From Halobacteriovorax sp. JY17 (GTDB lineage: Bacteria > Bdellovibrionota > Bacteriovoracia > Bacteriovoracales > Bacteriovoracaceae), in the NCBI RefSeq assembly GCF_002753895.1, contig NZ_NJER01000001.1, positions 62,001-126,000 of the forward strand: a stretch of DNA of 64,000 nucleotides, given 5' to 3'. Positions within the stretch are counted from its first letter, which is position 1; each line of letters opens with the position of its first letter. Below the pieces are notes generated by a model. The model was not told the origin of the DNA. It ran no database searches and saw only the letters and a program-made list of their open reading frames with translations. Positions 6,792-9,793 of the stretch are shown here, piece by piece. The position numbers were made by a program, and so were the translations under genes.

Positions 6792-7604
6792 TTACTTTTG
6801 GCATTTTGGACAATAATATGTCCCACGCTGGGCCAGATAGAGTTTTTTGACTGGAGTTTCGTGGCAGAGTTGGCAAATTTTCTGATAGAAGACAACTAAG
6901 TGCCCGACACCATTGCCTTTTGAGCCCGTGGTATCGGCATACCCTCCTTGGAATGTTGTTCCACCAGTTTGGGTTGCTCCATCTATAACAACGGCCGTTG
7001 CATGATGCATTCTTTTTATCTCGCTACTAGATAGTGATTTATTTCTTCTTGTTGGACGAACTCCGGCGCGCGCGCAGATTTCATTGACGATATAATTTCC
7101 CGTTCCCGCGTAGAGCTTTTGATCGAGTAGGTGAACCTTAATTTGTCTATTGGGATATTTCTTAATGGTCTCTGTTAAATAGTCACAGGTATAGGCAGGA
7201 TCTTTTAGATCAATTCCGAGCTCGTCTAATTTTGATTGAGTATCTTCTTGGTTGAGTTGATACATATGACCAAAGCGTCTTGGATCAACGTAGCTTAAGT
7301 AACCACCTTGGTGTTTTAAGCAGAGATGATTATGTTTGATTCCATTTGGATCAGAAGGTTTTTCTTTTCCAATTCTCCAACCACCAGTCATTCCTAGATG
7401 ACTTAGAAGAAATTCATTCTTATCTAATTCAAAGTAGAGGAGTTTGCCTTTTCTATGAACAGCAATGATTTTTCTACCCGTAAGATTAATAGGAGTGTGA
7501 GCAATTCCAGAAATCACTTTCGACTGAACACATTCAATCACCTTGATCGGCATGATCTCGTTTAACTGATTTTTGATTGTTTCAACTTCCGGAAGTTCTG
7601 GAAT
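6792..7604 (-). CDS. mutM: Formamidopyrimidine-DNA glycosylase (MutM/Fpg), apparent AUU start
   Basis: Removes oxidised purines such as 8-oxoguanine. Read back to 7604 the frame begins I-PELPEVET, the invariant MutM start whose Pro (after Met removal) is the Schiff-base nucleophile and whose following Glu is catalytic. The length is then 270 residues, normal for the family, and the C-terminal zinc finger CQLC...CPKC is intact. The codon where ATG belongs is ATT, with AAGAGG six bases upstream. The first ATG (7553) would remove the catalytic residues. Immediately upstream is a transposase whose stop lies inside the mutM 5' end. Expression may be reduced or lost, or may use AUU as start. Confidence 0.85.
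   Translation of the reverse strand: MPELPEVETIKNQLNEIMPIKVIECVQSKVISGIAHTPINLTGRKIIAVHRKGKLLYFELDKNEFLLSHLGMTGGWRIGKEKPSDPNGIKHNHLCLKHQGGYLSYVDPRRFGHMYQLNQEDTQSKLDELGIDLKDPAYTCDYLTETIKKYPNRQIKVHLLDQKLYAGTGNYIVNEICARAGVRPTRRNKSLSSSEIKRMHHATAVVIDGATQTGGTTFQGGYADTTGSKGNGVGHLVVFYQKICQLCHETPVKKLYLAQRGTYYCPKCQK
7578..7604. repeat. MutM 5'-end repeat, copy next to mutM
   Basis: Encodes [I]PELPEVET on the minus strand. It aligns without gaps to 8910-8936 in the same orientation, 1332 bases away. All mismatches except those in the start codon itself fall at MutM third codon positions. The core 7584-7597 is a 14-base perfect palindrome (AACTTCCGGAAGTT). Confidence 0.7.
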
Positions 7605-8794
7605 GATTAACCTCTTGGTTATAAGTATTTTTTCTCTGAATTTTAGCGTACTGAAGCTTTGTATTCAATTCTTCTTTTAAAAAATTGTAATCTATGTCTT
7701 TTGTATATACCTCATATGGAGTTGCACCATAAAACTTCGTAGATGGAGAGTTATTATAGTTTTTTATAGCGGATTTCGCTGTTTTGTATAGAGACATCTT
7801 TGAGTAGTGTTTATGTTTATTTAAATACCTGTTCTTTAAAATGTTAAAGAAGGCCTCAACTTTTAAATTAAGCCTTTTAGAGCTACCTTTTGAGGTAATT
7901 TGTAAAATATTTAAATCTTTTAAGAGAGAACGTACTTCATTATTTACATTTTCTCCTCCTCCATCACAGATTAAATATTTAGGAGTTACTTTGTTCATTG
8001 ATTCTGACAGGAGTTCGATGGTGTTGTATTTTGTTTTTCTTAACTTAACAGACCAAGAAATAATTAGTCCTGAATAGTTGTCTTGAATGACTTGAAGATA
8101 TAGGTATTTTCCATTTTTTCTTTTGAAAAAAGTAATGTCTATATGCCAAAATTCATTAGAGCTATTTGAAGATAATTTTGAATACTTTCGTGACTTACTA
8201 GTGTTGAGTTTATTGTTTCTTTGAATATCAAAAAGAATTATATATTTTCTCCATGTATCGTAGTGACAATGAAGAATATTATTCCTGAAGGAGTACAATT
8301 GAAGCTGTTTTATTGATAGGTGTTGTAGTCTTTTATTTGAAGCAGTTTTTACTAATACTTTTTGCTCATGTGTAGTTAATTGATTGGACCTTATTTGTTT
8401 AAAATCATAATACTCTTTTTTCCTTTTATTCTTATAGAATATTTTCTCATTAAACCCAATTAAATGGCACATAGAAGAGATACTTAACCATTTATTGTAT
8501 TTATGTAATATATTAATAATCGAATCATCTGGATTCGCAGAGCTCTTCTTGTAGTATTCCAAAATTTCTTTTAAAAAGCAGACGATTGCCCTCTCTTTGA
8601 TTAGTTGATTTCGTAGATCATTAACTTCTTTTTGGAAGACTTCATTCGTTTCTTTAGTATGTCGAATCGTTTTCTTTGAGTTTCTAATCCAGTAAAGAGC
8701 AGTAGTTCTTGGAATATTAAGTTCTGGAAGTGCATTTGGATTTTGAGTTCTTATAATAATATCTTTTACTGTTTTGATCGTACTTCTTGTACAT
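7582..8794 (-). pseudogene. DDE (rve-core) transposase with a one-base frameshift
   Basis: The best start is the ATG at 8794, with AAGGAG five bases ahead (8800-8805), giving MYKKYDQNSK. That frame hits a stop after 33 codons. Skipping one base in the AAAA run at 8764-8767 joins it to a long frame that reads a helix-turn-helix (LNIPRTTALYWIR), a coiled segment, and an integrase core with WHIDITFF (Asp), ICDGGGEN (Asp) and NLKVEAFF (Glu). The repaired protein would have 403 residues. The spacing of catalytic residues fits IS3/IS481-type enzymes. The last codons (NHSRTSGS) are read from the mutM start region, so the stop is supplied by the host gene. It is either inactive or dependent on +1 slippage. 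Confidence 0.78.
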
Positions 8795-8909
8795 GAAGAC
8801 TCCTTGACGAAAACTCGACATTTACTTTAAGTTTTTATAGAAAAATAGATACTTGTTGATGCTTAAACATGAAAATATCGTAAAGTAGACGACATAAGTG
8901 TATGAAAAC
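7605..8909 (-). mobile_element. Insertion sequence of about 1.3 kb (ends approximate)
   Basis: This segment carries a single transposase gene, is visibly more AT-rich than its neighbours, and sits between two diverged copies of the MutM N-terminal coding sequence. I could not find convincing terminal inverted repeats or an exact short target duplication, so the boundaries given are simply the inner edges of the two MutM-like repeats. On the left the element abuts mutM, and on the right it interrupts a thrombospondin-repeat gene that lacks its own beginning. Confidence 0.6.
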
Positions 8910-9793
8910 TGTTTCGACTTCGGGTAGTTCAGGCAGCTGGAAAGTGCGAGCTCGTAGAGTTTGATCCGGCTTCGAGTTCTAAAAACTTCATTGCTGTTTC
9001 GACAGAGTACTTAGATCGTTTCTTGACCGAAGTTTTAGATTTGAGATTTGTGAATATTACAGGTGATACCATGACGGGAAAACTTAATGTTAATGAAGAT
9101 ATTTCTTCTACGACAAAGATATGTGTTGCCGGAAGATGTCGTGACTTTCTGGAACAAAGTTGCCCTGATGGAGAAGCTATAAAAGGTATTAAGTCTGATG
9201 GAACTTTGAATTGCATTTCTGTGACACCTCCATCTGTGCCGATTGATGGAGGATGGACTGCATGGTCAGTTTGTTCCGCAACTTGTGGTGGAGGAACACA
9301 TACTAGAAGTTGTTCTAATCCTTCCCCTCAAAATGGTGGAGCTGATTGTGTTGGAGATTTTTCTGAGAGTTGCAATACTCAAGGTTGTCCAGTTGACGGA
9401 GGATGGACTGCATGGACACCATGTAATAAAGAGTGCGGTGGTGGAACTCAAATAAGAGCCTGTACTAATCCTCCTCCTAGCAATGGAGGAGCTGGATGTG
9501 ATGGATCTTCGTTAGCCAGTTGTAATACTTTCGCATGTGATAAGGATGGGGGCTGGAGTGATTGGGGTACTTGTAATACGACTACTCATGTACGAACTAG
9601 GACTTGTTCGAATCCATTTCCTACAGGAAATGGTGCCGGTTGCGTCGGAGCCTCACAAAAGTCTTGCTGTACTAGTCAAGAAGGCGGTTATTATCACGGA
9701 GAGTGCATGGCGAGACATGGAATTCCAAATAATGCTAAAGAAGATTGTTGGACAACTAATGGAACATACACTTGGACATGTGAGCCTAATTAA
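8906..9793 (+). CDS. Thrombospondin type-1 repeat surface protein, 5' end lost
   Basis: The frame is open from just after a stop at 8903 and has no start with a good ribosome site until the ATG at 9071 (AGGTG five bases before), which lies inside a motif ([12 protein letters not shown]) that looks internal. The first part reads [17 protein letters not shown] and later [18 protein letters not shown], typical of modular secreted proteins. Three thrombospondin type-1 repeats follow, each with GGW(T/S)xW, CGGGT or its equivalent and paired cysteines, then a Cys-rich end. Probably a cell-surface adhesin or matrix protein. The insertion sequence at its left edge seems to have removed the signal peptide and N-terminal region. 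Confidence 0.75.
8910..8936. repeat. MutM 5'-end repeat, far copy
   Basis: Read on the minus strand this encodes [L]PELPEVET followed by V, after which similarity to MutM stops and an unrelated sequence leads into the insertion sequence. The codon in the start position is CTG and no ribosome-binding site precedes it. On the plus strand the same bases are in frame with the broken thrombospondin-repeat gene. Confidence 0.65.

Follow-up and report, generated by a model that had tools for sequence, protein, structure and literature searches.

The window, by which we mean the whole 64,000-nucleotide stretch of DNA analysed here, carries the gene of formamidopyrimidine-DNA glycosylase mutM, the product of which contains Pfam domains Fapy_DNA_glyco, H2TH and zf-FPG_IleRS and matches the NCBIfam model fpg with 192 bits. 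A search of its own 3.47-Mb genome gave a single match. Next to mutM on the same strand lies the reading frame of an IS3-like transposase, followed by a gene of a thrombospondin repeat-containing surface protein on the opposite strand. The frame of the transposase is bordered by two copies of the mutM start, designated below as the near and the far copy according to their distance from the gene (Table 1).

Table 1. Features of the mutM locus, in coordinates of the window
Feature	Coordinates	Strand	Remarks
mutM (formamidopyrimidine-DNA glycosylase)	6792..7604	-	N-terminal PELPEVET; sole copy in the genome
mutM start codon ATT	7602..7604	-	GAGG Shine-Dalgarno-like stretch just upstream
Near copy, attR-like	7578..7604	-	ATT start and mutM codons 2-9, synonymous positions drifted
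IS3-like rve (DDE) transposase frame	7582..8826	-	Pfam rve 1.6e-12; stop inside the near mutM copy
Probable true transposase start	8772..8794	-	ATG 8794-8792, AAGGAG 8805-8800, MYKKYDQ as in relatives
Far copy, attL-like hybrid junction	8910..8936	-	Canonical mutM 5' sequence; left half overlaps surface-gene coding
Surface protein, thrombospondin type 1 repeats	8906..9793	+	Pfam TSP_1; 5' end truncated at the far copy

Read along the mutM strand, the near copy is ATTCCAGAACTTCCGGAAGTTGAAACA (ATT CCA GAA CTT CCG GAA GTT GAA ACA) and the far copy is CTGCCTGAACTACCCGAAGTCGAAACA (CTG CCT GAA CTA CCC GAA GTC GAA ACA). Their ungapped alignment, with an offset of 1332 bases, has 21 of 27 positions identical. 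Two of the mismatches fall on the position of the start codon (ATT versus CTG), while the other four occupy third positions within PELPEVET, so that the alignment bears out the claim of the first-pass annotation that both copies encode this peptide and differ within it only at third positions. The far copy contains without a single mismatch the 20-mer GAACTACCCGAAGTCGAAAC, and mutM genes of the whole order have this 20-mer or its close variants at their 5' end. Given a tolerance of up to 4 mismatches, only the near copy (3 mismatches) and the far copy (0) were found in the 64-kb window, the next best site having 5; in the genome of 3.47 Mb three sites deviate from GAACTACCCGAAGTCGAAAC in no more than 3 positions, and the third of them is located inside an unrelated gene.

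Conservation of the mutM start exceeds that of the rest of the gene at the level of codons. The excess of codon identity over the expected value at codons 3, 4, 5, 6 and 8 amounts to 0.45–0.82 against a mean of 0.04 for the rest of the gene, and in two genomes representing two genera (G043 and G002) all 8 of 8 codons at the mutM start are the same, compared with 29% at conserved residues elsewhere. In the near copy of the window only 4 of the 8 codons 2–9 are common with G043, which is the ordinary rate of this pair (55% over the remaining codons), and this copy has therefore drifted freely. Since the far copy is canonical and the near one is not, the origin of both in a single event is unlikely. 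This accounts for the restriction of differences to wobble positions: one copy serves mutM as its functional start and is selected at the level of protein, and the other one is a canonical attachment sequence.

The frame of mutM in the window is open, and its ATT codon together with the preceding GAGG corresponds to the situation in which the end of an element provides an intact gene with a new ribosome-binding site and start. ATT or ATC was the apparent start of mutM at 16 of 100 loci of the order, often next to element-like upstream sequences, and relatives with such starts have these upstream sequences in common. Judging by conservation and position, both codons may indeed be used for initiation. 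The proline in the second position of MutM is the catalytic nucleophile, and any element inserting here must therefore rebuild the exact start.

Distribution of mutM-like starts was estimated in a sample composed of mutM with up to 18 kb of upstream DNA from 100 genomes, which together with the window (101 genomes) gave 1.10 Mb; most of these genomes are metagenome assemblies, and contig ends are frequent near the site. In these upstream stretches of up to 18 kb the core GAACTACCCGA was registered in exact form 34 times on the mutM strand and never on the opposite one, with 1 occurrence of the reversed and 0 of the complemented control sequence. If one mismatch was allowed, the corresponding numbers were 53, 2, 10 and 13. 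The exact count of 34 versus 0 in 101 genomes upholds the earlier opinion that coincidence is very unlikely. Most of the exact upstream cores have ATGCC in front of them, many are preceded by a Shine-Dalgarno-like sequence, and past the core the sequence is no longer that of mutM and differs among dozens of genomes. As far as it can be read from their sequences, the additional upstream cores are displaced mutM starts. Some genomes bear them in series, namely five in G003 and three in each of G114 and G097 (one-mismatch copies counted). Very short stacked units were seen at one place of G003 (L169), where three canonical cores, spaced by 54 and 86 bases and supplied with degenerate start codons ATA, CTG and CTC, are located approximately 1.4–1.6 kb upstream of mutM.

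Homologues of a tyrosine integrase were found within 400 nt upstream of mutM and on the same strand in 45 of the 100 genomes. Eight of them are fragmentary, whereas at the other 37 loci the gene is full-length, encodes approximately 420 amino acids with the Pfam domain Phage_integrase and conserved catalytic residues R...H-x-x-R...H...Y, and ends about 70–260 bases before mutM. An independent scan with one genome per species gave 69 integrase loci, all of which were labelled either as lineages of Bdellovibrionota (Bacteriovoracaceae, Halobacteriovorax, Bdellovibrionales, Oligoflexia) or as unnamed bacterium, and two viral contigs brought the set to 71. A start codon followed by CCNGA.CT.CC.GA is present within 300 nt after the integrase at 66 of these 71 loci, 60 being recognised by the start-codon pattern and 6 having TTG starts, which lie outside the pattern and were seen in the listed sequences. 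Elsewhere in 0.71 Mb the pattern of the site occurs 15 times on the integrase strand and not once on the other. Both viral contigs are phage-like entries of IMG/VR, and in both of them the integrase is followed by ATG/GTG-CCAGAACTACCCGAAGTC and then by a sequence other than mutM. The site on both contigs is best read as a free attP. One of them (L310) has genes for RecT and exonuclease and the other (L311) an amidase lysis gene. Records of isolated phages gave only distant integrases with less than 60% identity. The near copy deviates from the canonical sequence by 1.05 mismatches on average at loci with the integrase and by 1.56 at loci without it (p = 0.022, phylogeny being uncontrolled in this comparison).

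Exchange of flanks, expected for site-specific integration, can be followed in pairs of empty and filled loci. In G088, compared with its empty relative G087, the left flank of the far copy agrees with the empty locus in 79 of 120 positions, and the right flank of the near copy agrees with mutM in 49 of 60. For filled G022 and empty G125 these values are 84/120 and 44/60. In both pairs the left flank matches at the far junction only and the right flank at the near junction only, with the change-over inside the core. The left-side exchange was absent in the pair G098/G097. For the window itself no relative with a matching left flank was found, and the comparison of empty and filled states rests on the two pairs described.

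Based on these data we consider it very probable that the 5' end of mutM is an attachment site of integrative elements and phages, of which the window contains a decayed case with a hybrid far junction. According to this model, mutM codons 2–6 (GAA CTA CCC GA) would function as attB for elements and phages of Bacteriovoracaceae and other Bdellovibrionota, and a dedicated tyrosine integrase would recombine attB with an attP imitating the mutM start, that is comprising a Shine-Dalgarno sequence, a start codon and CCN GAACTACCCGA. The end of the integrated element would then provide mutM with another ribosome-binding site and start codon, the original start of the host would come to lie at the element's far end, and repeated insertions would stack at mutM. 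Genome comparison shows the site, its displaced copies, the adjacent integrase, the exchange of flanks and the phage attP, and we infer that the reaction is performed by the integrase of the mutM-adjacent clade. An integrase of this clade, observed at 37 of the 100 mutM loci, is absent from the window locus; the best match anywhere in the genome has 24% identity and is unconvincing. We therefore class the unit in the window as decayed or lacking an integrase, and not as a complete element.

The only candidate for an enzyme between the two copies is the transposase. Its rve/DDE domain and transpos_IS3 as the best NCBIfam match relate it to the IS3 family, but the score of 95.9 bits is under the cut-off of 160, so the family model is not passed; in addition, it differs from this family in being present as a single copy per genome (one frame in the 3.47 Mb of its own genome), and neither terminal inverted repeats nor a short target duplication were recognised at the ends of the window's element. 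After the probable true start the frame changes near the A-run 8775–8772, while in relatives M..YRKYD is encoded in one unbroken frame; unless there is a sequencing error, the gene is therefore broken. Homologues of this transposase were found in 25 genomes and adjoin mutM only in G000, G045 and G003. In G045 the C-terminus alone remains, joined to mutM with an ATT start, G003 has preserved only an N-terminal piece, and none of the three copies beside mutM is both complete and free of frameshifts.

It is quite unlikely, in our opinion, that the 5' end of mutM is targeted by the IS3-like transposase itself, whose element would have a recoded mimic at its right end and the canonical sequence at its left. 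Such a role would agree with the C-terminus of the transposase running into the near copy in G000 and G045, with the N-terminus lying close to the canonical far copy in G000 and G003, and with the same synonymous codons CCG GAA GTT in G000, G045 and G003, although the latter belongs to another genus; these shared codons leave a small chance that the transposase is the agent after all. The inspection of flanks of other transposase copies, suggested in the first-pass annotation as a way to find mutM-like sequences, had the opposite outcome. In 22 of 25 genomes the homologue is not linked to mutM, the examined cases having no att-like repeats, and the 13 full-length loci off mutM revealed no mutM-like sequence and, in a search for direct and inverted repeats, mostly no flanking repeat, the scores of their flanks being mostly like those of shuffled controls. 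Relatives of the transposase were therefore rejected as mutM-targeting elements. Besides, dozens of genomes have displaced starts but no transposase. Thus, from the initial idea of an attachment-like element carrying a mutM mimic, the part concerning the repeats stands, as they behave as attachment sites in displaced starts and flank exchange, while the transposase as the targeting agent is not supported. Most likely it is a decayed passenger, because its gene is broken and its homologues live off mutM without att-like repeats. Searches with it in genome and viral collections gave no matches. Single-copy IS3-like rve genes of Bacteriovoracaceae (L061–L073) were in several cases found beside toxin-antitoxin genes of HigBA-, AbiE- or Phd-like types.

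Recombination between diverged mutM alleles, proposed earlier as the second possibility, proved unnecessary, as the genome has one mutM and the far copy lacks any further mutM body. The related assumption that such recombination or a decayed tandem duplication left the far copy as a remnant of another mutM seems to us highly improbable. Duplicated mutM fragments do exist, as exemplified by a 3' fragment in G003, and a divergent paralogue is situated near mutM in some genomes, but the far copy ends after approximately 9 codons and, unlike a diverged allele, is an exact copy of the order-wide core. Moreover, in dozens of genomes the similarity stops at the core and different sequences lie beyond it.

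The far junction is complicated by the surface-protein gene. Relatives of its product are 466–538 amino acids long and begin with a pilin-like N-terminus, which is absent from the gene in the window, and a search for the missing 5' half in its own genome gave only other pilin-like genes. The gene is probably a pseudogene. The first-pass annotation named as one ground for rejecting its reading that relatives show the sequence at 8910 as ordinary coding of the surface-protein gene, and this turned out to be partly the case: the frame aligns with relatives from approximately 8927 onward, so that this gene is the probable source of the left part of the far copy, but the rest does not align, and the right part probably came from an attachment site. 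That the whole far copy is surface-gene coding resembling mutM by chance is extremely improbable, since, even if the frame VVQAAGKC aligns from about 8927 and may make the left part (on the mutM strand, TGCCTGAACTACC) a native one, the remaining bases CGAAGTCGAAACA are outside the aligned surface frame and bring the match to 20/20, and the copy shares the orientation of mutM at a distance of 1.3 kb, in an arrangement that recurs in other genomes. The codon in front of the far copy is CTG and there is no Shine-Dalgarno sequence, whereas displaced starts typically have both ATG and a Shine-Dalgarno sequence.

For the window, integration at the attachment site in mutM would imply that the near copy with its ATT is the mutM start supplied by the element, that the far copy represents the second attachment junction, and that only the broken transposase gene remains between them. 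The simplest history of the far junction would be recombination at a look-alike site in the surface-protein gene with loss of the intervening DNA; such an event would have truncated the surface gene and removed the earlier upstream flank of mutM. The exact course of this event is a reconstruction. The earlier neighbour of mutM, which in G046 and G003 is a sensor kinase gene upstream of it, is missing here, and no clear orthologue of this kinase was found in the genome of the window.

Elements that insert into the 5' part of a housekeeping gene and replace its start have a precedent in SXT/R391, large conjugative elements of Gammaproteobacteria that occupy prfC. The principle of start replacement is the same at mutM, but the target and the integrase are different. 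The closest parallel is provided by islands and prophages inserted in dusA, where a conserved gene has a tyrosine integrase encoded next to its 5' end, attL and attR are imperfect direct repeats of approximately 19–28 bp, and the gene receives a new 5' end from the island, its original end being displaced (Farrugia et al. 2015, PMC4482086). The architecture of mutM islands equals that of dusA islands (PMC4482086), and the window reproduces it in having imperfect direct repeats of the gene 5' end at both ends. The differences are that mutM islands target mutM and live in Bdellovibrionota, that their sites are serial in some genomes, that the supplied start is often ATT or ATC, and that the integrase gene points at mutM, ending at the short distance given above, while the criterion used for dusA islands was that 5' end adjoins 5' end (PMC4482086). 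No report on mutM or fpg as an attachment site was found among open-licence papers. Thus, the kind of element is known, while the mutM target, the integrase clade and the host group appear to be new.

The data identify in predatory bacteria an order-wide integration hot spot, whose target is a base-excision-repair gene, together with a clade of integrases. The size of mutM islands ranges from approximately 0.7 to 17.7 kb, and the 17.7 kb at mutM in G085 include a complete type I restriction-modification system (L139, 9138–16597). In a spot check of cargo, G079 had a large protein matching candidate defence families, G002 a weak SIR2-like match, and other islands contained antitoxin-type helix-turn-helix regulators. 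With its defence cargo and phage-like users, the hot spot provides ready markers for prophages and islands in these bacteria, and the locus offers a testable case of synonymous sites conserved as a recombination site. One can also imagine that insertion operates as a switch of DNA repair, when an element-supplied start, often the weak ATT or ATC, takes the place of the normal one, lowers the level of MutM and raises G:C to T:A mutation until excision restores it; we regard this as rather improbable. If it were true, the 5' sequence of mutM would be contested, being kept identical across genera by the traffic of elements and drifting where this traffic stops.

Two further observations concern mutM itself. 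Divergent paralogues with about 35% identity (G087 C6:239441-240070, G104 C1:2488219-2488854 and G096 C137:1392-2000) likewise open with an att-like PELPEVE, and that of G087 is 5 kb away from mutM. In G003 (L050) the 3' end of mutM is duplicated 3.5 kb from the intact gene and is nearly identical to it.
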